Shown here one piece after another: positions 19,150 to 33,648 of a stretch of 33,729 bases of DNA (position 1 is its first letter; every line of letters begins with the position of its first letter). The DNA is from Acidobacteriota bacterium. GTDB taxonomy: Bacteria > Acidobacteriota > Polarisedimenticolia > J045. The notes beneath the pieces were generated by a model. The model did no database searches. It was not told where the DNA came from and saw only the letters and a program-made list of their open reading frames with translations. The position numbers and the translations under genes were made by a program. The stretch spans positions 1-33,729 of the forward strand of contig JANTFM010000005.1 of the NCBI GenBank assembly GCA_024763475.1, given 5' to 3'.

Positions 19150-20058
19150 ATGATGGGGCCCGAAGTTTTCGTTTCGACAGCGTCCGCTCGCAATCCGCGC
19201 GATCTTCCCAGAGTTCTCGACCGATTCCTGCGCGCGGGAATCTCAGCGATCGAGCTGTCCGCTCCCCACCCGTATCTGGGAATCACAGAGATCGAATCGC
19301 TGTTGAAGGCTTCCCAGGACAGGGGAGCTAAGTTTATTCTTCATAACTACTTTCCTGCTCCGAAGGAGCCAATCGTCCTCAACCTTGCTGCAGTGCGCGA
19401 TGACGACCATGAAGCGACTCTATCGCTTGTGCGGGAGGCTCTGACCCTCGCAGAAGAGACGAAATCAACACTCTATACCTGTCACGCAGGCTATCGAGCC
19501 CACGCGATCTGCCCAGCAGGCGGACAATTCAAGTTTGAACGATTAGATGTAGATGCAAAATTACGAGCGAATCACCGCCAGCGGCAGAGCCTAGCCTCGA
19601 TCCTCGAGACTCCGGCCCTCCGCTCCGGCGCGCTTCGCTTCGGCATCGAGAACCTCTTCCCCTGCGAGTCCGGCGGCGAGAACGTCAGCTACTGCTGCAC
19701 TCCGCCCGAAATTCTGGAGCTTCTGGACCACTTCGCGGATCAGCATCTCGGGCTGCTCCTTGACCTCGGCCATCTCTCCATCACGGCCACCCTGCTCGAC
19801 TGCGACCCCGATCAGCTCCTCGACGAGGTGATCAGACTCTGCGGCGATCGTATCCTCGAGGTTCATCTCTCTGGCAACGACGGCATGCGGGATCTCCACC
19901 ACCCCCTTGAGCCCACGGCGTGGCAACTCCAGGTTCTCCCGCGTCTTGCTCACCTCCCCGGCACCGGTGACGGCCTCTTCTTCACCCTCGAGGCCAGAGG
20001 CCTAAGTGAAGACGAATGTCTCACCCAGGTTGATTTGATCCGAAGTGCTCTCCGTTGA
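19150..20058 (+). CDS. TIM-barrel sugar phosphate isomerase/epimerase family protein
   Basis: A 302-residue protein of the xylose-isomerase-like TIM-barrel superfamily (AP_endonuc_2 type). LHNYFPAP, CHAGYRA, FGIENLFP, LLDLGHLS and ILEVHLSGNDGMRDLHH carry the Glu, Asp and His residues that normally bind the divalent metal. Members isomerise or epimerise sugars, but the substrate cannot be read from sequence. GAGG lies five bases before the ATG. It is the first gene of the plus-strand glycan run and may act on the sugar made there. Its last dozen codons (from LTQVDLIRS) lie inside the first copy of the left repeat array, so the 3' end may have been shaped by the repeat. Confidence 0.8.
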   Translation: MMGPEVFVSTASARNPRDLPRVLDRFLRAGISAIELSAPHPYLGITEIESLLKASQDRGAKFILHNYFPAPKEPIVLNLAAVRDDDHEATLSLVREALTLAEETKSTLYTCHAGYRAHAICPAGGQFKFERLDVDAKLRANHRQRQSLASILETPALRSGALRFGIENLFPCESGGENVSYCCTPPEILELLDHFADQHLGLLLDLGHLSITATLLDCDPDQLLDEVIRLCGDRILEVHLSGNDGMRDLHHPLEPTAWQLQVLPRLAHLPGTGDGLFFTLEARGLSEDECLTQVDLIRSALR

Positions 20059-20456
20059 GACTCCTGCGATGAGAAACACTAAGTCCCTTTATAGCAACGT
20101 GCTAACCGAAGTCGACAACGGCACCCCGGGTGATTCCTTTCTCACCCAGGTTGATTCGAAGGGGGCTGCAGAGCGTCCTGCGACGAGAATCACCGAGGCG
20201 ACTCGCAGCACCGCAATCACCAGGGACGGCCACCGCACCCGGGTTGATCTGCGTCTCACCCAGGTTGATTCGGGGCGGCGATGAAAAGCGCTGGATCGGG
20301 TCCTCTTGAGGAGAAAACCAAGAGTGACAACCCCACCCAGGTTGATTCGCGTCGGGTCGTAGCTTCGGACGGAGAGGGGCAACGTGTCGTTGACAACCCC
20401 ACCCAGGTTGATTCGCGTCGGGTCGTAGCTTCGGACGGAGAGGGGCAACGTGTCGT
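20021..20456. repeat. Left repeat array, core CCCAGGTTGATT
   Basis: The exact core CCCAGGTTGATT occurs five times: near 20024, 20145, 20259, 20335 and 20401. Variants such as CACCCGGGTTGAT (20236) and CACCCCGGGTGATT (20122) also occur. The first two intervals (20021-20141 and 20142-20255) are diverged copies of one unit of about 115-120 bases, sharing the core, a middle part beginning TCCTGCGAYGAGAA, and a second core near the end. The last part is an exact tandem duplication of 66 bases (20325-20390 and 20391-20456). The array runs from inside the 3' end of the isomerase gene into the 5' end of the dehydrogenase frame. The same core, reversed, forms the array at 33505-33648. Confidence 0.9.
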
Positions 20457-21753
20457 CGTGGTCGGCCTCGGTTTTGTTGGGCTTACCTTGGCGCTCGCGC
20501 TCGCGCGCAGGGGTCTTGACGTGCGAGGTGTCGACACGAATCCCGAGACCCTGCGTTTGCTCAGGCAGCGGAAAGCTCCGTTTCATGAGAATGGGATACA
20601 GGAGTGCATCGAGGATCTGGTGGGGCGACGTTTGATCGTTTGCGACTCGCTTGAAGAGGCACAGGGGGATGCCTATATCGTGGCGGTTGGCACACCGCTC
20701 GAGGAGGACGGCCGCACGCCCGCGCTAGGAGGGTTGAGAGCAGTCTGTTCCCAGGTCGGCCACGTGCTTCAGGAGGGGAACCTCGTGGTGCTGCGTTCGA
20801 CGGTGCCGGTCGGAACAAGCCGTGAGGTCGCGCTTCCGGTGATCGAGGAGGCGTCCGGTCTTCGCTGTGGCAGGGGCTTTCGTCTAGCCTTTGCGCCTGA
20901 GCGCACCGCCGAGGGGCGCGCACTCCACGAGCTGGCGACGAATCCGCAGATCGTTGGTGGACACACGAAGCCGGCCACCGAGTCCGCGATGCGCCTATTC
21001 GAGAATCTGAGCGAGGCCGTGATTGATGTGGGCTCCCTCGAAGCCGCCGAGTTGAGTAAGCTGATCGATAACTCCTACCGTGACCACGTCTTCGCCTACG
21101 CGAACATGCTGGCGCCCCTGACGGAGAGATTGGGCCTTGATCTCCACCGGATCGTCGATGCGGTGAACTTCTCATACGAGCGCAACCGCGTTCCGCGCCC
21201 GTCTCCCGGAGTGGGAGGCCCTTGCTTGTCGAAGGATCCGCTGCTTCTCGCAAGCGTCTACGAGCGTCACGGTCTCTCCACCCAGATGATCGAGGAGGTC
21301 CGGAGGATCAATACCCGCGGACCAGGGCTCGTTTGCGACAAGCTGCTCCGCTTACTCGATGCTGCGGGAAAGCAAGCCTCGATGGCTCGTGTCAGCCTGG
21401 TGGGCCTTGCTTTCAAGGGCGAGCCGGAGACCTCCGATCTGCGGGGTTCGACCTCGCTCGCGCTTCTCGCGCAACTGCCGGAGATCGGGCAACTGCGCGG
21501 CTACGATCCCGTCGTTCCCGCAGAAGCGATCGCAGGCCTTGGGCTGCTGCCCGTCTCGCTGGAGGAGGCGTTCGAGGACGCGGATGCGCTTCTCGTGCTC
21601 AACAATCACGCGAGCTACAGGGAGTGGAAGCTGCCGACTTTGCTCGATAGGATGCGCAAGCCGGCGGTTTTCATCGACTGCTGGCACCTCTTCGAACCCA
21701 CGGTGATCAAAGGCGTGGAGAGAATCCTCTACGGTGGAGTTGGCAATGACTGA
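20281..21753 (+). CDS. Nucleotide-sugar dehydrogenase (UDP-glucose/GDP-mannose dehydrogenase family)
   Basis: A 490-residue protein. After a 57-residue tail, VVVVGLGFVGLTLALALA is the NAD-binding Rossmann start. LRSTVPVGT, LAFAPERTAEG, AELSKLIDNSYRD and GVGGPCLSKDP (with the catalytic Cys) follow, then the C-terminal UDP-binding domain (FKGEPETSDLRGS, VLNNHASYREWKLP). These enzymes oxidise C6 of a UDP- or GDP-sugar to the uronic acid; the exact sugar is not known. The tail (about residues 15-58) comes from repeat DNA and contains a 22-residue segment twice. The only in-frame starts are ATG 20281 and GTG 20458; the GTG has GGAGAGGGG 12 bases upstream but would remove most of the first beta strand, so I chose the ATG. 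Confidence 0.85.
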   Translation: MKSAGSGPLEEKTKSDNPTQVDSRRVVASDGEGQRVVDNPTQVDSRRVVASDGEGQRVVVVGLGFVGLTLALALARRGLDVRGVDTNPETLRLLRQRKAPFHENGIQECIEDLVGRRLIVCDSLEEAQGDAYIVAVGTPLEEDGRTPALGGLRAVCSQVGHVLQEGNLVVLRSTVPVGTSREVALPVIEEASGLRCGRGFRLAFAPERTAEGRALHELATNPQIVGGHTKPATESAMRLFENLSEAVIDVGSLEAAELSKLIDNSYRDHVFAYANMLAPLTERLGLDLHRIVDAVNFSYERNRVPRPSPGVGGPCLSKDPLLLASVYERHGLSTQMIEEVRRINTRGPGLVCDKLLRLLDAAGKQASMARVSLVGLAFKGEPETSDLRGSTSLALLAQLPEIGQLRGYDPVVPAEAIAGLGLLPVSLEEAFEDADALLVLNNHASYREWKLPTLLDRMRKPAVFIDCWHLFEPTVIKGVERILYGGVGND

Positions 21754-22741
21754 GATCCTGGTCACGGGGGGGTCCGGGTTCATCGGCTCCGCAATCGTTG
21801 AGCGCCTTCTTCAAGGGGGCCACAGCGTGCGGGTCCTCGACGATCATTCCCGTGGAACACCCAGGGCGCTCGAGCGTTTTGGTTCGCGGATCGAAGTCGT
21901 CTGCGGGGACGTTCGTCGCTACGAGGATGTGGCTCGCGCGATGGACGGCGTGCGTACGGTCTACCACTTGGCATACGTCAACGGGACGCAGTTCTTCTAT
22001 ACGAAACCCGAACTGGTGCTGGACGTGGGTGTACGTGGCCAGCTCAACGTGCTCGACGCGATCGAGAGCAGCCGCAGCGTCGAGACCTTCCTCTATGCGA
22101 GTAGCTCCGAGGTCTACCAGACCCCAAGCGAGATTCCCACCGGAGAAGACGTGCCAGCCGTTGTCCCGGATCTCGCGAATCCCCGCTATTCCTACGGTTG
22201 CGGCAAGATCGTCAGCGAGATGATGACGCTGCACTACCTGCGTCGCCCCGGCGTCCGGAGGGTCATCGTTCGTCCCCACAACGTGTATGGGCCGCGCATG
22301 GGCTACGAGCACGTGATTCCCGAAGTGATGCGCATGATCGGAGACGAGAGCCGGGGTTTTTCGGCGAAGCAGGTGACGATCCGGCTGCAGGGAAGCGGCG
22401 AGGAGACGCGGGCCTTCTGCTTCATCGACGATGCGGTCTCCGGCTTCATCCGGGCTGCCGAGAGGGGGGAGGACGGGCAAATCTTTCACTTGGGAAACGA
22501 GGACGAGATCACGATTCGCGAACTGGTCGGCGAGATGGCCCGGATCCTGGGCATCGAGGTCACCGCCGAGCCTGGTGCACCCGCGCCGGGAGCGACGCCC
22601 CGCCGCTGTCCCGATATCCGCAAGCTGCGGGCCTTGGGCTATGCGCCGGGAGACAGCCTGGGAGAGGGCCTGAGGTGCACGGTCGAGTGGTACCGCGAGG
22701 ATTACCTCCGGCGCACCCAGTGCAAGCCCGGAGTCTGCTGA
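21746..22741 (+). CDS. NAD-dependent sugar epimerase/dehydratase (extended SDR)
   Basis: A 331-residue extended short-chain dehydrogenase. TGGSGFIG (7-14) binds NAD, YASSSEVY holds the active-site serine, and Y150-x3-K154 (YGCGK) is the catalytic pair. RPHNVYGPRMGYEHVIPEVM is the family's substrate-binding part. Such enzymes epimerise, dehydrate or decarboxylate nucleotide sugars at C4 or nearby. The serine motif SSSEVY is nearer to epimerases and decarboxylases than to the STDEVY of 4,6-dehydratases, but this is a weak guide. I chose the ATG at 21746, with GGTGGAG seven bases upstream; it overlaps the dehydrogenase stop by eight bases. Its product probably feeds the aminotransferase encoded next. 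Confidence 0.87.
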   Translation: MTEILVTGGSGFIGSAIVERLLQGGHSVRVLDDHSRGTPRALERFGSRIEVVCGDVRRYEDVARAMDGVRTVYHLAYVNGTQFFYTKPELVLDVGVRGQLNVLDAIESSRSVETFLYASSSEVYQTPSEIPTGEDVPAVVPDLANPRYSYGCGKIVSEMMTLHYLRRPGVRRVIVRPHNVYGPRMGYEHVIPEVMRMIGDESRGFSAKQVTIRLQGSGEETRAFCFIDDAVSGFIRAAERGEDGQIFHLGNEDEITIRELVGEMARILGIEVTAEPGAPAPGATPRRCPDIRKLRALGYAPGDSLGEGLRCTVEWYREDYLRRTQCKPGVC

Positions 22742-22750
22742 GGAGATCTC

Positions 22751-23857
22751 TTGTTCATGGAGCGCATTCCGATTTCCAACGCCACGCTCGGCCGGGCTGA
22801 GGCGGAGGCCGCCAGTCGACAGATTCTTTCCGGTTGGGTTTCGATGGGTGCCCGTGTGCGGGAGTTCGAGGCGCGCTGCGCGGACTACCTCGGCGCGCGC
22901 CACGCGATCGCCTTCTCGAATGGTACGGCGTCCCTGCACGCCGCTCTCCTCGCGCTCGGAGTGGGGGAAGGCGACGAGGTCATCGTGCCGAGCCTGTCCT
23001 ACATCTCTTCGGGCAACGCGGTGCTCTACTGCGGGGCCAGGCCCGTCTTTGCGGAGGAGGACGAGCGGACCTTCAACGTCGATGCCGAGGAGATCGCACG
23101 GAAGATCACGGATAAGACCCGCGCGATCATGACCGTCGACCTCAAGGGCATGCCGGTCGACTACGACGCGATCAATGAGCTGGCCGCGGCGCGTGGAATC
23201 CCGGTGCTCGCGGATTCGGCGGAGTCCTTTGGCGCACGATACGGAGGCGAGCTCGTCGGGAGCCAGTGCGACGCGCACTCCTTTTCTTTCTTCGCGAACA
23301 AGAACATCACGATGGGCGAGGGGGGGCTCGTCACGACCGCCAGCGACGAGATCGCGGAGGCTTGTCGCTGCGTGCGCAACCAGGGCCAGAGCGAGCGATA
23401 CCGCCACGTGATCTTGGGTCACAATTACCGGCTGACGGACATTGCCGCGGCGATTGGTATCGAGCAGCTCGGGCGCCTCGAGGCGGTTCTGGACGCCAAG
23501 GAGCGGATCGCCCGCATCTACACTGAGCACTTTTCGGAGATGGGTCGTGTCGAGCCGCCCTATCTGCCGCCCTATGTCGGGCGTCATTCCTGGTACATGT
23601 ACTCGATTCGTTTCGATCAGAGCGTCTGTCGTGACGATCTGCGCCAGCGCCTCGATGTGGATGGGATCGACACGCGACTCTCCTTTCCGCCGATCCCGCT
23701 CCAACCCTACTACCGGGAGCGCTTCGGCTATCGAGAGGGTGATTTTCCCCGGGCGGAGCGGATCTTCCGTTCCTTCCTGGACATTCCCTGCTGGGCAGGT
23801 ATGAATGACGGTCAGATCGAGCGGGTGATATCGGCCGTGGAGCGAGGTATTTCATGA
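22751..23857 (+). CDS. DegT/DnrJ/EryC1 family PLP-dependent sugar aminotransferase
   Basis: A 368-residue protein. SNGTASLHAALLALGVGEGDEVIVPS is the PLP phosphate-binding start in other words of the family (split here as SNGTASLHAALLALG and GDEVIVPSLSYISS). DSAESFGARYGGE carries the Asp that holds the pyridine ring, and K184 in FFANKNITMGEGG is the Schiff-base lysine. RNQGQSERYRHVILGHNYRL completes the signature. It would transfer an amino group from glutamate to a keto-sugar on a nucleotide. The start may be TTG 22751 (AGGAG five bases upstream) or ATG 22757 (11 bases). It follows the epimerase gene closely and overlaps the oxidoreductase gene by four bases. Confidence 0.92.
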   Translation: MFMERIPISNATLGRAEAEAASRQILSGWVSMGARVREFEARCADYLGARHAIAFSNGTASLHAALLALGVGEGDEVIVPSLSYISSGNAVLYCGARPVFAEEDERTFNVDAEEIARKITDKTRAIMTVDLKGMPVDYDAINELAAARGIPVLADSAESFGARYGGELVGSQCDAHSFSFFANKNITMGEGGLVTTASDEIAEACRCVRNQGQSERYRHVILGHNYRLTDIAAAIGIEQLGRLEAVLDAKERIARIYTEHFSEMGRVEPPYLPPYVGRHSWYMYSIRFDQSVCRDDLRQRLDVDGIDTRLSFPPIPLQPYYRERFGYREGDFPRAERIFRSFLDIPCWAGMNDGQIERVISAVERGIS

Positions 23858-24855
23858 AGATCGTCGTCGTCGGGTCGGGATCCATCGGAAAGCGTCACAT
23901 GGGAAACCTGATCGCCAAGGGCTTCGCCCCAGGCGAGATTCACGCGGTGGACCCGCGGCCGGATCGCCGGGCGGAGGTCGCGAGCCGTCTCGGAATCACC
24001 CAGACCCATTCGTCCTTCGAGGAACTGATCGGCCTCGGCGCGGAGATCGTCGTGATCGCCTCCCCGACGTCGATGCATCTCGAGCACGCCGCCCGCTTCG
24101 CCGAGACGGGGGCCACCCTGCTGATCGAGAAGCCGTTGGATGCGAGCCTGGAGGGTCTCGACGAGCTTCAGGGAGCGATCGCGCGAGGTGGCAGCAAGGT
24201 GCTGGTTGCCTATCCCTTCCGTTTCTCACCTGCGGGTCGCAAGCTCAAGGAGCTCAGCGACGGGAATGCTGCGGGGCGGCCGCTCTATCTCCGGGGTGAG
24301 TTCTCCGAGTACCTGCCGGACTGGCATCCCTGGGAGGACTACCGGGAGTTCTACATGGCCAAGGTCGCACTCGGAGGCGGTTCTCTCCTCGATCAGAGCC
24401 ACATCATGGATCTCGCCCACTGGCTCCTTGGAGAGGTCGAGGGGGTTTTTGGATACAGCGGTCGTGTCTCGGATCTCGAGGTCGAGACCGATGACTTGGC
24501 GGAGATCCAGGTGCGTTTCCGCTCCGGGGTCATCGCCACGATTCACCAGGACATGTTCGGCCGCCGCCACCAGAAACTGCTCGAGATCAAGGGGACCCTG
24601 GGGAACATCACCTGGAACGCCTACGACTTCTCCGTGGAACTCTTCCTCCGGGCGGCGGGTGAGACCCGGCGATGGGAGTTCGCCAAGGACCATCAGGTCA
24701 TGTATCACGCGCTGATCGATCACCTGCTCCAGGTGCACCAGGGAGAGCAGGCGCCGGGATGCACTCTCGACGAGGCGATTCACGGCATGCGCATCATCGA
24801 GGCCGTGCGCCGCTCGGCCGTTTCTCTTCGTCAGGAGACCCTCGAAGCTTCATGA
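23854..24855 (+). CDS. Gfo/Idh/MocA family NAD(P)-dependent oxidoreductase
   Basis: A 333-residue protein. It has an N-terminal Rossmann domain (IVVVGSGSIGKRHMGNL), the EKP motif with K93 (LLIEKPLDAS), and a C-terminal beta-sheet domain with GGGSLLDQSHIMDLAHWLLG, where the family's catalytic His-Asp pattern lies. It oxidises or reduces a hydroxyl of a sugar or nucleotide sugar. Its place after a DegT aminotransferase and before an SDR and a NeuB-family gene is like the PtmF position in Campylobacter legionaminic-acid loci; that comparison is from gene order, not from alignment. The AUGA overlap with the aminotransferase gene shows tight coupling. Confidence 0.9.
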   Translation: MKIVVVGSGSIGKRHMGNLIAKGFAPGEIHAVDPRPDRRAEVASRLGITQTHSSFEELIGLGAEIVVIASPTSMHLEHAARFAETGATLLIEKPLDASLEGLDELQGAIARGGSKVLVAYPFRFSPAGRKLKELSDGNAAGRPLYLRGEFSEYLPDWHPWEDYREFYMAKVALGGGSLLDQSHIMDLAHWLLGEVEGVFGYSGRVSDLEVETDDLAEIQVRFRSGVIATIHQDMFGRRHQKLLEIKGTLGNITWNAYDFSVELFLRAAGETRRWEFAKDHQVMYHALIDHLLQVHQGEQAPGCTLDEAIHGMRIIEAVRRSAVSLRQETLEAS

Positions 24856-25032
24856 ATCCTCCGGGATCTCGCCCGCCAGCTCGCACCCGATAGACGCCTG
24901 CTCATTGACGATCCCGCTCGCGGAACCCACATTTCGTGCAGGATCTTTCGAAGCCGCTCGCAAGTGTTCAGCGGCGGACGGAGACCTGTCCCCGGCATAG
25001 CTGGATCTCAACAGCGGGGTGAGGGAACGCGC

Positions 25033-27963
25033 ATGGATTCTGCTCTGCGAACCGGGTTTGCGGCGAGTGCCTGGCCAGATCATCACTTCGGACTGAGCGA
25101 GGAGCGCTGGAGTCTCCTGCGCGGCAAGGCGGTCTGGCTCACGGGCGCCGGCACGGGTTATGGCCGTGCGATCGCCTGCATCCTCGGCGCGGCGGGATGT
25201 CGCGTCTTCCTGACGGGGCGGCGCAGAGCCAAACTGGAGCAGACCATCGAGGCGGCCCGAGCGTTGGGTGCTTCCAAGGAACGTTTCGTGCTGGTCCCTG
25301 CGGATCTCGCTGATCCCGCAGAGATCAACCGCGCCGCCGCGAGGATCCGGGAGGAGGCGACCGAGCTCTTCGCCCTGATCGCCAATGCGGCGCTTCCAAG
25401 CTCCGGGCGACTCCCCCTGCTCGAAGGAGACCTATCCCGCTGGGACGACATGATGGCGGTCAATCTGCGAGCACCCTGGCTGCTGACCCGAGCTGTTGCG
25501 GGATCGCTCGCTGCGGCAGGTTCCGCGCGTGTCCTGTTCATCAGCTCGGAAGCCGGTTGGGCGGACACTGCTGGATTCGGGGCCTACAACGTCTCCAAGG
25601 CGGGTCTCAACAGCCTCTGCCACTCCTTCGCACGGGAGTTCGCTACGGCTCATCCTGGAGCAGACATCCAGGTGAACGGGATTCTGCCCGGTGAGGCCGA
25701 GACCGAGATGAACCCGGAGTCCAAGGCGAGCCCCTTCCGCATCGTTGCCACGCTTCTCGAGCTGCTGACCCAGGACTGGGGTGGGCCGAGCGGCCGTTTC
25801 TTTCACGCCGACGGCCGCTCTCTTGCGTTTGGCCACAGTCAGGCCTGGCAGCCCGCTCTGGACGCGAGGCCCGCGCACGTTGCGCAGACCCTTCTGCACC
25901 AGATGACTGAGGCTGGAAAGCAGTTCTTCCTTCCGCGCAGTATCTGCTTCGACCACGGTCCGCGGGATCTGAGGATTCTCAGCCTCGTTGCCAACCGTCT
26001 CGTGGAGAAGAAACGATCTCTTGCGTTCTACGGCGCGGGCAAGCTGTGTCGCTATATGCTCGAGCGGGTTCCCCGGCTCTGTGAGCATATTCGCTGCATC
26101 GTTGATGACCACCCGTCGAGCCAGGGTCAGGCGGTGTGCGGAATCCCCGTACTCCCCGCCAGCGAGCTACCCGGGGAGATCGAGACCGTCTTCTTCTGCA
26201 CGACCGACTTGTCCACGATGGTTCGTATGCTCTTCCGTGCGGCGACGCGGAAATGGAAGATAGAACGCGTCAGCCTCGATGTGATCCAGGAACTCGACCC
26301 TCGTTTGATTCCCGAGGAGGGGTGGCAGAAGCCCATCGCCTCGATCTACCCCAAGCAGATACCGGAAATCGTGTTCGAGAAGGGGCAGGACATGATCCTG
26401 CTCGAGCTCCCCCCCCGGTACCAGCCGCTCGTTCCGAACGGAATCGGCTACGTCAACAACATCCTTCGCACGACGGGGATTCGTTTCCAAACGATGGATC
26501 TCAACATCATCTTGTACCATCGCTTCCACCAGCGGCGAATCCTCAATCGTCTGGATTCGACGGCCGGCCCAGAGGGCCAGCGAATCCCGGAAGATCCGTG
26601 GGCGATCGTCGAGTGCCGCGGATGGGAACAGCCCGAGGTTCTCAAGTACTTCGCGCGCGACATCGAGGAGATTGTGAGCGGCCTCATCAAGGCCAAGCCC
26701 AGGATACTGGGCATCTCCCTAAGTGGGTTTAACCGCGAGCTCGCCAAGACGATCGTTCGCCGGGTAAAGGAACAACTCCCTGAACTGATCGTGATCGTCG
26801 GGGGATACGACTGCATCCGTCCGCTTCCGGGAAAACGTCACTTTGCCGATTTCGACTACATGGTCATCGGAGAGGCCGAGGAGACTCTCGGTCCGTTGAT
26901 CGCCGCGCTAATGCGCGGAGAGCGACCGATGGACCAGCCGGGAATCCTTTCCCGCCACGACTCCGCGCAGCGCGTCTTCGAGTACGGTCCCAAGCCAACG
27001 GATCTCGACAAGTACGGCTACCCCCAGTACGAGTGGGCGGACTTGAAGCTCTACCAGGCCCACGGGGGGCAGTACTTGATTCCCGTTGCGGCATCCCGTG
27101 GATGCGAGTGGTCCCGCTGCCGCTTCTGCTCGGAGTGCTTCACGTTCCGCGCGCGCGATCCCCAAAAAGTCGTCGACGAGATCGAGTTCATGACGGGGCA
27201 AGGTTTTCGAGCGATTCATTTCAATGACAGTGACATGAACGGAGATCCAGCGATCCTGCAGCAGATCTGCGAAGGCGTCATCGCGCGGGGCATCAAGACG
27301 GCACTCGTCGGTCAACTTCGCATCGACCGCCGGAACACGCCTGAGTTCCTGGACAAGCTGAAGCGGGCGGGATGCGCGCATTTGCGCTATGGCGTGGATG
27401 GCTGGAACGACCGCGTGCTGCGCCTCCAGGCCAAGGGTTACAGCATGAAAGTCGTAGAGCAGGTGCTGAGGGACAGCCACGCTGCCGGTTTCTACATTGG
27501 TGTGAACGTCGTGCTAGGACTTCCGGGAGAGACCGAGCAAGATGTCGATGAGATGATCGAGAACTTGATTCGACTCTCACCCTACTACGACATGGTCGAG
27601 AATATTCATACGTTGATCCTCGGTGTCGGCAACCAGTACTACGCGAACCCGGAGAAGTACAAGATCCGCTTCCGCTCGGATCAGCGTGAACTCTATCTAT
27701 CACATGTTGACTCCATCCCAACAGACCAGTGGTACAGCGAAGACCCGTACATCGACCAACAGGTACGTGTCGAGCGGCTCGAGCGGGTGGCAAAGGCGCT
27801 AAGCGGCGCTGCGATCGAGCTTGGAGGTTATGCAAAGCATACGGTCGAAAGGCTGGCGCGACAGGCACAGGACGTCACGCTCGCGTCACAGGGGAGAAAG
27901 GGTGAAGCTCGACTCACCCTCCCGCCCGCCATGCCGAAACCCGTGGCGAACACGGCCCTATAA
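25033..27963 (+). CDS. Three-part fusion: short-chain dehydrogenase, Rossmann-like domain, cobalamin-type radical SAM enzyme
   Basis: A 976-residue protein. Residues 30-285 are a classical SDR: TGAGTGYG (37-44) binds the dinucleotide, ISSEAG has the serine, and Y185-x3-K189 is the catalytic pair. Residues about 325-430 hold a second Rossmann-like part (SLAFYGAGKLCRYML, CIVDDHPSSQGQAVCGIPVL) like the PglD N-terminal or C-methyltransferase C-terminal domains. About 440-640 resembles a B12-binding domain (ILGISLSGFNRE, IVIVGGYDC), though no DxHxxG histidine motif is seen. Radical SAM cysteines are C691, C696 and C699, with C-x4-C-x2-C spacing, followed by FNDSDMNGD and VVLGLPGETEQD. The ATG at 25033 has GAGGG seven bases upstream; an earlier GTG (24964) does not. 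It lies just before the NeuB-type gene, so it likely modifies the same sugar. Confidence 0.85.
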   Translation: MDSALRTGFAASAWPDHHFGLSEERWSLLRGKAVWLTGAGTGYGRAIACILGAAGCRVFLTGRRRAKLEQTIEAARALGASKERFVLVPADLADPAEINRAAARIREEATELFALIANAALPSSGRLPLLEGDLSRWDDMMAVNLRAPWLLTRAVAGSLAAAGSARVLFISSEAGWADTAGFGAYNVSKAGLNSLCHSFAREFATAHPGADIQVNGILPGEAETEMNPESKASPFRIVATLLELLTQDWGGPSGRFFHADGRSLAFGHSQAWQPALDARPAHVAQTLLHQMTEAGKQFFLPRSICFDHGPRDLRILSLVANRLVEKKRSLAFYGAGKLCRYMLERVPRLCEHIRCIVDDHPSSQGQAVCGIPVLPASELPGEIETVFFCTTDLSTMVRMLFRAATRKWKIERVSLDVIQELDPRLIPEEGWQKPIASIYPKQIPEIVFEKGQDMILLELPPRYQPLVPNGIGYVNNILRTTGIRFQTMDLNIILYHRFHQRRILNRLDSTAGPEGQRIPEDPWAIVECRGWEQPEVLKYFARDIEEIVSGLIKAKPRILGISLSGFNRELAKTIVRRVKEQLPELIVIVGGYDCIRPLPGKRHFADFDYMVIGEAEETLGPLIAALMRGERPMDQPGILSRHDSAQRVFEYGPKPTDLDKYGYPQYEWADLKLYQAHGGQYLIPVAASRGCEWSRCRFCSECFTFRARDPQKVVDEIEFMTGQGFRAIHFNDSDMNGDPAILQQICEGVIARGIKTALVGQLRIDRRNTPEFLDKLKRAGCAHLRYGVDGWNDRVLRLQAKGYSMKVVEQVLRDSHAAGFYIGVNVVLGLPGETEQDVDEMIENLIRLSPYYDMVENIHTLILGVGNQYYANPEKYKIRFRSDQRELYLSHVDSIPTDQWYSEDPYIDQQVRVERLERVAKALSGAAIELGGYAKHTVERLARQAQDVTLASQGRKGEARLTLPPAMPKPVANTAL

Positions 27964-27965
27964 TG

Positions 27966-28001
27966 ATCCTCCCCAGCGCAGAGGGCGCGGGTGAGGAGGA
28001 T
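27966..28001 (+). promoter_or_regulatory. Hairpin that masks the ribosome binding site of the NeuB-family gene
   Basis: ATCCTCC (27966-27972) is the exact reverse complement of GGAGGAT (27995-28001), which is the Shine-Dalgarno site for the ATG at 28009. A nested GCGC/GCGC pair lies inside. The left arm starts three bases after the stop of the preceding gene, so a ribosome finishing that gene would open the hairpin. This suggests translational coupling; function is not shown. Confidence 0.45.
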
Positions 28002-28008
28002 TGCTGAG

Positions 28009-29079
28009 ATGCCCAGGACTTTCCAGATTGGCGACGCGAGCATCGGTTCGGGAGAAAAGACATTCATCATCGCCGAGGCCGGGGTGAACCACAACGGTGA
28101 CCTCGCCATGGCCAAGGAACTGATTCGCCAGGCCAAGGTGGTCGGGGCCGACTGCGTGAAGTTCCAGACCTTCATTGCCGAGCGGCTTGTGACCAGGAGC
28201 GCCCCTAAGGCCGATTATCAACTCAAGACCACCGATCCGGGCGAATCGCAACTCGCGATGCTCAAGGCACTTGAGATGAGCTATGACGCGTACGAGGAGT
28301 TGATCGCACTGGCACGCGAGCTAGGTATCGTATTCCTGTCTACTCCCTACAATCCCGAGGACTGCGACTTTCTCGAGGCGTTCGGTCTTCCCGCATTGAA
28401 ACTGGCGTCAATCCACTGCGTCGAGCCCCCGATGCTCGAGCACGCGGCACTCAAGGGCAAGCCGCTGATCCTCTCCACAGGTATGGCGGATCTTGGCGAT
28501 GTGGAGCAGGCCGTAGGGGTGATCCGTGATGCTGGGTGCGAGGACTTTGTTGTCCTCCAGTGTACAACAGACTATCCGTCTCGGATCGAGAATACGAACC
28601 TCCGGGCGATGGGGACCATGAGAGAGGCGCTGGATGTCCACGTGGGCTACTCGGATCACACGCAGGGCGCGAGTGCTTGCATTGCTGCGGTTGCTCTGGG
28701 CGCGCGAGTCATCGAAAAGCATTTCACTCTCGACAAGTCCCTACCTGGGCCCGATCAGTCGAGTTCGTCCGACGTGGACGAGTTTCGTGCCCTAGTTCAA
28801 GCGATCCGTCAGACCGAGGCTGCGCTCGGGGATGGCATCAAGCGTCCTGCGGCCATCGAAGTGGAGAACGCCCGGGGCATGCGGCGCAGCCTCGTGGCCC
28901 GACGGAATATCTTGGCGGGAGAGATTCTGGAGCAGGGGATGGTGGGTTTCATGCGGCCGTCGACAGGTGTGCTTCCGCGGGACTGGTCCCGGGTGGCAGG
29001 GGTGAAATTCGCAAGAGATGTTGCGGCTGGCGAGGTGATCGTCTGGCCGGACCTGGGGCTCGAACGTGAAGAACGCTAA
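28009..29079 (+). CDS. NeuB-family nonulosonic acid synthase
   Basis: A 356-residue protein with the complete NeuB layout. The TIM barrel carries FIIAEAGVNHNG, VKFQTF, STPYNPED, LKLASI, ILSTGMADLGD, CTTDYPS, GYSDHT and IEKHFTLDKSLPGPDQ. A C-terminal antifreeze-like SAF domain (about 290-350, ARRNILAGEIL and FARDVAAGEVI) covers the active site. NeuB, LegI and PseI condense phosphoenolpyruvate with a 6-carbon amino sugar to give sialic, legionaminic or pseudaminic acid; by eye I cannot tell which. The ATG at 28009 has GGAGGA eight bases upstream. No CMP-sugar synthetase gene is nearby. Confidence 0.92.
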   Translation: MPRTFQIGDASIGSGEKTFIIAEAGVNHNGDLAMAKELIRQAKVVGADCVKFQTFIAERLVTRSAPKADYQLKTTDPGESQLAMLKALEMSYDAYEELIALARELGIVFLSTPYNPEDCDFLEAFGLPALKLASIHCVEPPMLEHAALKGKPLILSTGMADLGDVEQAVGVIRDAGCEDFVVLQCTTDYPSRIENTNLRAMGTMREALDVHVGYSDHTQGASACIAAVALGARVIEKHFTLDKSLPGPDQSSSSDVDEFRALVQAIRQTEAALGDGIKRPAAIEVENARGMRRSLVARRNILAGEILEQGMVGFMRPSTGVLPRDWSRVAGVKFARDVAAGEVIVWPDLGLEREER

Positions 29080-29863
29080 GTATGTCTACTGTGGCTATGG
29101 CTACGCGGGCCGGATGGGCCTGTGGCGCATGATGACAGAGTGCGCGATTCCGGCGAGGAATATCCTCGCCTACACCTACGACTCGGAAGAAAACCGCTCA
29201 CTCTTGGACCTCCTGGAGCAGAGCGGCATTTCCTATCACCTGAACCGTATCGCCGGAGAAGGCGCCAGAGACGAGGTGCAGGCCTTCGGGGCCGACTTGC
29301 TCGTTTCCGTCTACTATCGTCACCGCGTGCCCAATTCGGTGCTCTCCCTCGTTCGCCGGGGGGGCATCAACCTGCATCCCTCCCTTCTTCCTGAGTACCG
29401 GGGGACCTTCTCCGGTCCGTGGGCGATCATCAACCGTGAGGAAGAGACCGGAATCAGCTGGCACGTCATGACGGAGGCCTTCGACGAGGGTGCATTGCTC
29501 TTGCAGGAGCGCTTTCCACTGGCCGAGCGAGAGGATGGCTACACGCTCTATCAGAAGCTCGTGGCCACAGGGACTCACTGGATCGGCGAGGCAATCAGCC
29601 GTGCGCTGGACGAGAGCTTCGTGCCCCAGGACCAGAAGGGTCAGGGCAGCTACTACCCGCGGGAGCTGCCATGCGGGGGAAAAATCGATCCGTCCTGGCC
29701 TCGGCAGCGGGTCGATGCGTTTATTCGCGCGCTTCGTTTCCCGGGAAAGCCCTGCGCGCATCTCACGCTCGAGGGGATGGAGTTCGAGGTGGAGAGTATC
29801 GAACAATACGATCTCATTCTTGAGCAGGTCCTTGCGGCGGATGAAGAGGGCGTCAATCCATGA
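29066..29863 (+). CDS. ArnA/methionyl-tRNA formyltransferase-like sugar N-formyltransferase
   Basis: A 265-residue protein. N102 and H104 in GINLHPSLLPEYRG and D140 in AFDEG match, in spacing and even number, the catalytic Asn-His-Asp of the formyltransferase domain of E. coli ArnA. The family moves a formyl group from N10-formyltetrahydrofolate to an amino group. In a glycan cluster with an aminotransferase, the likely acceptor is an amino sugar, not methionyl-tRNA; the short C-terminal part also lacks a clear tRNA-binding domain. It starts with GTG 29066, inside the 3' end of the NeuB-family gene (14-base overlap), and overlaps the next gene by four bases. Confidence 0.87.
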   Translation: MKNAKYVYCGYGYAGRMGLWRMMTECAIPARNILAYTYDSEENRSLLDLLEQSGISYHLNRIAGEGARDEVQAFGADLLVSVYYRHRVPNSVLSLVRRGGINLHPSLLPEYRGTFSGPWAIINREEETGISWHVMTEAFDEGALLLQERFPLAEREDGYTLYQKLVATGTHWIGEAISRALDESFVPQDQKGQGSYYPRELPCGGKIDPSWPRQRVDAFIRALRFPGKPCAHLTLEGMEFEVESIEQYDLILEQVLAADEEGVNP

Positions 29864-31947
29864 TTCCCGTCAACGAAACTCTTCCAGGGAAGCTGAACGC
29901 TCTCGCCCGCTGGCCCGATCTCGGCCAGGTTCATGACAAGCGGGTCCTCGTCTTCGGGTTCTCGCCGCACTGGATCAACTACTTCGCGTTGATCAGCATG
30001 GTTCTCGTCCATCGGGGCTGCCGGGTGGACTTCGTCTGGACACCCGTCTACGAGCACGACAACGCCGATGTCGTGGCGCATGCGGAGAGCGTGCGGGAGA
30101 TCTTTGAGCCTGCATTCGCCTCCGTGTCTCACGATCGATTTCGCGCGTTCAACTTGCGCGACCTGCCGATGGCTCAGCTCAGCGACGAGATGCTGGACGA
30201 GGTCCGCGCGCAGAGTCGCGAAGATGTCACGCACTTCACTAGGGAGGTCAAGACGGATCCCGAGCGGGATGCCCCGCGGCTCTTCGGACGACGCCAGCAC
30301 TACAATCACGAATGCATGGCGTCGCTGTTGAGCCTGTTCCAGAAAAACGAGTACGACCTCGTTTTGGAGCCGAACGGCAAGGTCTACGAGTGGGGCATCG
30401 TCTACCGGCTCGCGAGCATTCTCGGCGTCGCGGTGAGTTCGGTTGAGAGCTTCCGCTGCGGCTTCGACCAGGCCTTCGTGCACTCTTTCGAGCATCCCGC
30501 GATCCTCTGGAACGAGGAGACGATCGCAGCCGCCTGGAAGGCGAACGAGCCTCATATCGCGAGTGACCTGACGCGGGAGCGCGTGCGCAAGCTCCAGGAG
30601 CGCTTCGACGCACCGGACAAGGATCTCTCGCTGCAGTTCTGCGAGGGAGGCCAGGCGGACACCTTGCGTGAGCGTCTCGGTCTCGATCAGGATCGACCGA
30701 TCGTGCTGCTTCTCCCTAGCCTGGGCTACGAGAAGTTCTACCGCTTGGAGCACTACTGCTTTCGGGACGGTGTGGACTGGTATCTCGAGAGCCTGAACTA
30801 CCTTGCGGGGCGGGATGACTGCTATCTCGTGATCCGCTCCCATCCCTTCCCCTACGGTGACGGCCGGGAAGACCCGATGAACCACCGGTCCTCCGGAGAG
30901 ATCCCGGAGCGGCTGATGGAGGAGCACTTTGCCAAGTTACCCGAGAACCTACGCTTCATCTCCGCCACCGAGGAGATCAACACCTACGACTTGATGGCGA
31001 TCGGCGACTGGGCCCTGTGCTACAGCTCGGTCACGGGTCTCGAGATGGCGCTTGCAGGAAAGTCTGCCGTCGTTCCGACATCGATTCACTACAACGGCAA
31101 GGGGTTCACGCGAGCACCCCGTACGCACGAGGAGTACTTCGCCGCGATCGACACGCTCTTGGCCGATCCCTCCCGCGGCCGGCTCAACCCGCGGCAGATC
31201 GAGTTGGCGCAATGCTACGTGGAGGTCTTCTACTACCTCTACCCCAGCCCCTTCCCCTGGAATATCAGCATCGGCGGCTTCCTCTACGAGGAGTGGCCGC
31301 TCGAGCGTGTTTTGTCTCTTGAGGGCCTGCTCTCACCCTTCATGGACACCTTCGATGCACTGGTGGAGCGCCGGCCGCACACGGATGCACAGAAGCTGGC
31401 AGAGTTGAGAAGCTATCTCGCGGCGATCGCGGGGAGCGCAGGGTCGGGCGACTTCGCCTCGACCACGCGCCTGCTCGGGCACCTTGAGGAGGTCGACTTT
31501 AGCGCGCTGGCGGCTCGTTACCCGGAGAGTTCTGCGCATCTGGTGCAGCGCTGGACGGCGCTGGCGGAACTCGTTCGCGGTTGCCGGGGCGCGGAGGACT
31601 TCGCGCGGCTTGCCGAGGCGACGGCGCAGGCGACCGGCACGGAGGAATGGTTCGCCCAGGAGCTGCTCAAACTGCGCCCCCTGCGTGTCGAACAACGTCT
31701 CGTCAAGGGCACGGCGCTCTACCGGGAGCGTGACGTCGATGGCGCGATGGTGCTCTTTCGCGAGGCTCTCGATCTCGACCAGAACTGTGCACAGGCCTGG
31801 AATAACATCGGCGTCATCCTGCATGGCAGCCATCAGCAGGACGCGGCGCTCAAGGCCTTCGAGACCGGTCTCGCAGCGGATCCGGGGAATGTAGACTGTC
31901 AGCGGAACTATGCGGCGTTGAGGATGGAACTTCAGCCGACGAGCTGA
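29860..31947 (+). CDS. Capsule-type glycosyltransferase with C-terminal TPRs
   Basis: A 695-residue protein. Residues about 25-430 have a GT-B look similar to capsule synthesis (KpsS-like) and CDP-glycerol transferases. RVLVFGFSPHWINYFALISM is the N-terminal Rossmann start, YDLVLEPNGKVYEWGI and LVIRSHPFPYGDG follow, and IGDWALCYSSVTGLEMALAGKSAVV is the donor-phosphate region. A helical linker leads to a C-terminal TPR part (about 605-690; GTALYRERDVDGAMVLFREAL, then NNIGVILHGSHQQDAALKAFE). It probably transfers the cluster's sugar to a glycan or a protein; TPRs often bind the acceptor protein. The exact donor is not known. It is the last gene in the operon. Confidence 0.75.
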   Translation: MIPVNETLPGKLNALARWPDLGQVHDKRVLVFGFSPHWINYFALISMVLVHRGCRVDFVWTPVYEHDNADVVAHAESVREIFEPAFASVSHDRFRAFNLRDLPMAQLSDEMLDEVRAQSREDVTHFTREVKTDPERDAPRLFGRRQHYNHECMASLLSLFQKNEYDLVLEPNGKVYEWGIVYRLASILGVAVSSVESFRCGFDQAFVHSFEHPAILWNEETIAAAWKANEPHIASDLTRERVRKLQERFDAPDKDLSLQFCEGGQADTLRERLGLDQDRPIVLLLPSLGYEKFYRLEHYCFRDGVDWYLESLNYLAGRDDCYLVIRSHPFPYGDGREDPMNHRSSGEIPERLMEEHFAKLPENLRFISATEEINTYDLMAIGDWALCYSSVTGLEMALAGKSAVVPTSIHYNGKGFTRAPRTHEEYFAAIDTLLADPSRGRLNPRQIELAQCYVEVFYYLYPSPFPWNISIGGFLYEEWPLERVLSLEGLLSPFMDTFDALVERRPHTDAQKLAELRSYLAAIAGSAGSGDFASTTRLLGHLEEVDFSALAARYPESSAHLVQRWTALAELVRGCRGAEDFARLAEATAQATGTEEWFAQELLKLRPLRVEQRLVKGTALYRERDVDGAMVLFREALDLDQNCAQAWNNIGVILHGSHQQDAALKAFETGLAADPGNVDCQRNYAALRMELQPTS

Positions 31948-33504: not shown

Positions 33505-33648
33505 GAATCAACCTGGGACCCCGTCTCAGCATCAACCTGGGACCTTTTCTCAGAATCAACCTGGGACCTTTTCTCAGAATCAACCTGGGACCTATTCTCA
33601 GCATCAACCTGGGACCTTTTCTCAGAATCAACCCGGGACCTTTTCCCG
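33505..33648. repeat. Right repeat array, six tandem units of 24 bp
   Basis: Units start at 33505, 33529, 33553, 33577, 33601 and 33625, an exact 24-base period. The shared part is GAATCAACCTGGGACC, with GCATCAACC in two units, followed by a TTTTCTCA-like linker. The first linker and the last unit (AACCCGGGACC) are diverged. The 12-mer AATCAACCTGGG is the reverse complement of the left array's core. Because 24 is three times eight, both strands stay open and read as an octapeptide repeat (STWDLFSE on plus), but nothing else suggests translation. Confidence 0.95.

Follow-up and report, generated by a model that had tools for sequence, protein, structure and literature searches.

An SDR fused to a B12-dependent radical SAM enzyme in a nonulosonic-acid-like locus of an Acidobacteriota bacterium

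The window analysed here (33,729 nucleotides, contig JANTFM010000005.1 of assembly GCA_024763475.1, Acidobacteriota) carries a run of predicted sugar genes, identified by Pfam and NCBIfam matches and all on the forward (+) strand. A nucleotide-sugar dehydrogenase (20281–21753; above the cut-off of NCBIfam TIGR03026) is followed by an NAD-dependent epimerase/dehydratase (21734–22741) whose nearest model is LegB, below the cut-off, a DegT/DnrJ aminotransferase (22751–23857) nearest to the PseC, ArnB and LegC models, again below their cut-offs, and a Gfo/Idh/MocA oxidoreductase (23854–24855). Farther downstream lie a NeuB-family nonulosonate synthase (27991–29079) that passes the N-acetylneuraminate synthase model TIGR03569 (406.7 bits, cut-off 399.65), a gene for a formyltransferase domain protein (29066–29863), and a gene for a 695-aa protein with C-terminal TPR (29860–31947) that, from weak matches, is possibly a glycan-transfer protein. 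Judged by its predicted genes, the locus is nonulosonic-acid-like; neither a CMP-transferase nor a hydrolysing epimerase was recognised among the genes of the window. The formyltransferase gene after the NeuB gene suggests an N-formylated amino sugar. Inside the 5' end of the nucleotide-sugar dehydrogenase ORF, positions 20325–20456 form a perfect 66 bp tandem duplication holding AATCAACCTGGG, and the true start of this gene is probably later than listed, after the duplication.

Between the Gfo/Idh/MocA and NeuB-family genes, an ORF at 24964–27963 (+) is open throughout, and from the ATG at 25033 it encodes a protein of 976 aa (25033–27963, +). A sequence-only reading of this DNA had proposed a single 976-residue frame joining an SDR to a radical SAM enzyme within a nucleotide-sugar/NeuB locus. 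Frame, joining and placement all hold: no stop occurs within 25033–27963, the neighbours are those given above, and a Pfam search of the protein finds three domains (SDR, B12-binding and Radical_SAM), each above its curated threshold. With the small domain recognised by NCBIfam and modelling, the architecture is SDR, Rossmann, B12-binding, radical SAM.

The SDR domain (residues 28–277; 25114–25863, +) was delimited by Pfam and by alignments of three and of six SDRs, and the adh_short match (1.2e-37) covers residues 32–231. It is a classical SDR, as the same reading had said: the nucleotide-binding motif of the TGxxxGxG type is TGAGTGYG at residues 37–44, and the Ser-Tyr-x3-Lys catalytic residues S172, Y185 and K189 are invariant across the six aligned homologues. 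The family motif GGPxGRFFHxDG lies near the C-terminus of the domain.

A linker at about residues 279–295 (25867–25917, +), placed by alignments, leads into a small Rossmann domain (residues 296–436; 25918–26340, +). No Pfam family matched this middle domain, and the NCBIfam match to the NeuD/PglD family is weak (E 7e-4, 19 bits against a cut-off of 160.8) and spans only residues 35–83 of the domain, its first part. The structural model of the domain (pLDDT 85) has a Rossmann-like fold, with modest matches (TM about 0.5) to Rex repressors, TcaB9, KijD1, a protein called UDP-quinovosamine 4-dehydrogenase and perosamine N-acetyltransferase; by their entry names, all of these except Rex act on nucleotide sugars. 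TcaB9 and KijD1 are TDP-sugar C3-methyltransferases, and we take the likeness to lie in their C-terminal domain from a reading of fold families, not from the match table. The earlier description of a PglD-like part therefore stands only in part, since the domain resembles the Rossmann half of the NeuD/PglD sugar acetyltransferases but lacks their left-handed beta-helix acyltransferase part, and the domain that follows it is B12-binding.

For the B12-binding domain (26392–26950, +; Pfam and alignment), the Pfam match covers residues 536–619 (2.7e-9, 37.3 bits against a gathering threshold of 32.1), and the domain probably starts at about residue 454. The SxL and GG motifs are present and DxHxxG is absent, a combination that is common in this group. 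The radical SAM domain (residues 688–843; 27094–27561, +) is recognised by Pfam Radical_SAM (2.3e-15, 57.6 bits against 29.5), and the proposed C-x4-C-x2-C cysteines, a variant of C-x3-C-x2-C that places the protein in the radical SAM superfamily, are confirmed by alignment, with C691, C696 and C699 invariant in all ten core homologues, as are many other residues. Having an N-terminal B12-binding domain, the enzyme belongs to class B, the B12-dependent radical SAM enzymes. The C-terminal region of this part (27562–27960, +) aligns by a conserved WYSExPYID..VR.

The nearest solved relatives of the core, which we define as the part of the protein after the SDR, are by profile the five PDB matches TsrM, OxsB (second best), TokK, AprD4 and MgmA, and MgmA is also the best structural match of the radical SAM part (Foldseek). 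TsrM, TokK and MgmA are cobalamin-dependent methylases, and OxsB forms an oxetane ring. The top NCBIfam model, over residues 539–878, is TIGR03975, a RiPP maturation radical SAM C-methyltransferase, but the score of 112.4 bits lies below the cut-off of 281.85 and no RiPP precursor context was seen. A full-length AlphaFold model (7 sequences) has a pTM of 0.48, too poor to tell whether the two active sites are turned towards each other; matches of this whole model to malonyl-CoA reductase in Foldseek were attributed to SDR domains.

Using the core as a profile, we found homologues of 38–42% identity at loci L047 (bacterium DP16D_bin.2), L048 (Acidobacteria MAG, G006), and L049 and L050 (both Planctomycetota). 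Further profile searches added L099 (G809), L100 (G879), L101 (G1262, ended by the contig end), and L102 and L103 (both G1240). Pfam also finds the B12-binding domain in L010/L048 and L102, with borderline matches in L099 and L100. The small Rossmann domain is absent from L100, L102 and L103, and present in the window although the window core groups with these three (93/90). Carriers are rare, amounting to 1/348, 3/298 and 3/297 genomes in three groups and to 2/396, close relatives, in the phylum of the window. A search of that phylum using the radical SAM part as query returned numerous generic B12 radical SAM proteins of 25–33% identity, with no SDR of the subfamily beside them in the neighbourhoods examined. 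Viral contigs gave distant radical SAM matches only and no such SDR, and the plasmid search gave one distant match. The core subfamily is small and rare, and apparently unnamed.

Several core homologues differ from the window protein at the C-terminus, where they carry repeats that it lacks. The repeat, of ~60 residues with the pattern YNIIxYxxxYYAxxxxxGxxD and no Pfam family, is found at the C-termini of proteins in L047, L048, L049, L050, L100 and L101, in core homologues as well as in neighbouring glycosyltransferases, sulfotransferases, methyltransferases and other radical SAM proteins.

The SDR is linked to the core well beyond this window. At L047 an SDR gene lies upstream of the core gene, in the same frame, with an 84 bp gap; at L100 it lies upstream with a 29 bp gap, at L102 upstream with a gap of about 150 bp, and at L048 downstream, in reversed order, with a 33 bp gap; over the four loci the gaps run from 29 to 152 bp. 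The window SDR is 41–47% identical to these four and at most 36% identical to the other SDRs compared from the same genomes. A sixth member, in G398, has a core in the same genome, the two lying apart. All six SDRs form one clade with support of 100/99, in which L047, L048 and G398 group apart from the window, L100 and L102; the core tree suggests the same with moderate support. Across two surveys of 267 genomes each, chosen independently of the core, the SDR subfamily occurred in 3/534 genomes, all three of them core carriers. Like the core subfamily, that of the SDR is small, rare and apparently unnamed. The partner SDR at L048 (9289–10644) has an N-terminal TIR-like (ThsB_TIR) domain, seen on the overlapping locus L010.

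Because the genes adjoin in four genomes, the SDRs form one clade and every survey carrier of the SDR also has the core, we conclude that SDR and core are very probably partners, working as a pair on one unusual sugar; the adjacency at L047, L048, L100 and L102 likewise supports the joint role that the sequence-only reading had suggested. Three core-bearing genomes (G397, G809 and G1262), which may be incomplete, yielded no SDR of the subfamily, and this counts against the pair in that the core may act alone. A split transketolase, named from sequence, lies directly before or near the core at L047 (1–1558), L049 (8061–9892) and L099 (7233–9055), in three genomes of which two are without the SDR, and may point to another partner for the core. 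Several core loci hold many glycosyltransferases, nucleotide-sugar genes, sulfotransferases and polysaccharide exporters: L047, L049 and L099–L101 are glycan loci, and L048 and L102 have surroundings that are not clearly of this type. None of the other SDR-core loci has a match to the NeuB of the window, so the pair has no exclusive tie to nonulosonic acids.

The alignments show two conserved active sites in one chain, drawn from rare subfamilies whose genes usually lie side by side. Our leading, still tentative reading is that the fusion joins two partner enzymes that tailor one sugar of a surface glycan, most likely by C-methylation, with the product passing into the nonulosonic-acid or amino-sugar pathway encoded around the gene. 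With NAD(P), the SDR domain would turn a hydroxyl of the sugar into a ketone, or reduce a ketone back, and the small Rossmann domain may help to hold the nucleotide-linked sugar. The B12/4Fe-4S part with SAM would generate a 5'-deoxyadenosyl radical, and through it an unactivated carbon of the sugar would be made reactive and most likely receive a methyl group from methylcobalamin. Either the SDR step or the radical step may come first, and the fusion would prevent loss of the keto or radical-modified intermediate. A bolder form of this proposal, which we regard as doubtful, is a new two-enzyme system that modifies nucleotide-linked surface sugars by radical chemistry: a keto-sugar would be handed on between the SDR and the B12 radical SAM enzyme, in this protein inside a single chain, towards a C-branched or otherwise unprecedented nonulosonic-acid precursor.

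Methylation is suggested by the core, since most of its structurally known relatives are B12-dependent methylases, and sugar tailoring by the weak resemblance of the middle domain to the TcaB9/KijD1 domain (TM about 0.5). GenK and GenD1, cobalamin radical SAM enzymes like the core, methylate sugar carbons and offer a precedent (PMC5461906). Compared with TsrM, TokK, MgmA and GenK/GenD1, the fused protein carries an attached SDR and a Rossmann domain of sugar type, has C-x4-C-x2-C cysteines and lies in a surface-glycan locus, and its activity is predicted only. The relatives OxsB and AprD4, which do other chemistry, speak against methylation.

AprD4 provides the first alternative. In this scheme a sugar diol would lose one hydroxyl through the radical SAM part, and the ketone so formed would be reduced by the SDR. 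AprD4 itself dehydrates a diol as a radical SAM enzyme and is partnered by AprD3, a reductase that depends on NADPH (PMC5461906), the same arrangement of a radical enzyme and a dedicated NAD(P)H reductase on a sugar as is proposed here, and such deoxygenation would account for the SDR as the usual partner. AprD4 is indeed among the five PDB matches of the core profile, but the match (6fd2, E 3.9e-5) covers the radical SAM domain only and falls well below TsrM and OxsB, whereas the window protein has a B12-binding domain that exceeds its Pfam threshold, and both partners in a single chain. We tentatively favour C-methylation and consider deoxygenation less likely. Much the same low standing belongs to other B12 radical chemistry coupled to SDR redox, such as epimerisation, oxidation or an OxsB-like ring change: the rank of OxsB among the PDB matches fits it, and the split transketolase beside some homologues suggests carbon-skeleton chemistry, but no specific feature points to it and most structurally known relatives methylate.

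The surroundings of the SDR raise a further question, whether it belongs with the PtmA-type enzymes that make legionaminic acid and was joined by accident to an unrelated radical SAM gene next to it. In a described legionaminic locus, ptmA is found close to ptmF, with leg genes alongside (PMC4481668), and the window likewise has an SDR next to a Gfo/Idh gene, with LegB-, LegC- and NeuB-like genes close by. The PtmA-like position noted in the sequence-only reading is accordingly real as gene order, and the likeness is one of position only. The 254-aa PtmA is a protein on its own (PMC4481668), whereas the window SDR is fused and groups with radical-SAM-linked SDRs. Its closest relatives found adjoin radical SAM cores in loci without a match to the window NeuB, and the lack of a recognised CMP-transferase or hydrolysing epimerase in the window also counts against a chance fusion of this kind, which we judge quite improbable.

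An artefact behind the fusion is unlikely, since the linker is short and free of stops, the GC content by codon position is unbroken across it, and the SDR and core sides each align in the same frame to separate families; an assembly or sequencing error that erased a stop codon between two adjoining genes is thus very improbable, although homologues are separate genes, the L047 pair shares a frame and the fused form comes from one MAG only. The linker corresponds in the L047 alignment to the SDR stop, the short gap and the core start, and so marks where the two genes join. The sequence-only reading had said that homologues always encoded as separate genes, joined here by a sequencing or assembly error, would count against the fusion. 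The homologues are indeed separate genes, but as adjacent genes of the same subfamilies they strengthen the functional link and argue for a true fusion of partners.

The fused form was found in the window only, and no other member of its genus was among the genomes searched. Within what was searched, the protein is a new combination of building blocks from known superfamilies. The literature searched, with incomplete journal coverage, gave no paper describing an SDR joined to a B12 radical SAM enzyme, and none placing radical SAM enzymes in the synthesis of nonulosonic acids. A few antibiotic pathways are known to employ B12 radical SAM enzymes on sugars. If our reading is right, radical chemistry on sugars extends to bacterial surface sugars in Acidobacteriota, Planctomycetota and other uncultured bacteria, and the fused protein offers a single gene for testing both the partnership and the reaction.

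Two minor features of the window lie outside the fused gene. A xylose-isomerase-like TIM-barrel gene (19150–20058) has a counterpart at L101 (10831–11673, 29% identity). There are 11 copies of AATCAACCTGGG (0.02 expected), in two clusters of opposite orientation at 20024–20413 (-) and 33506–33637 (+), one on each side of the sugar locus; just past the second, the contig ends.
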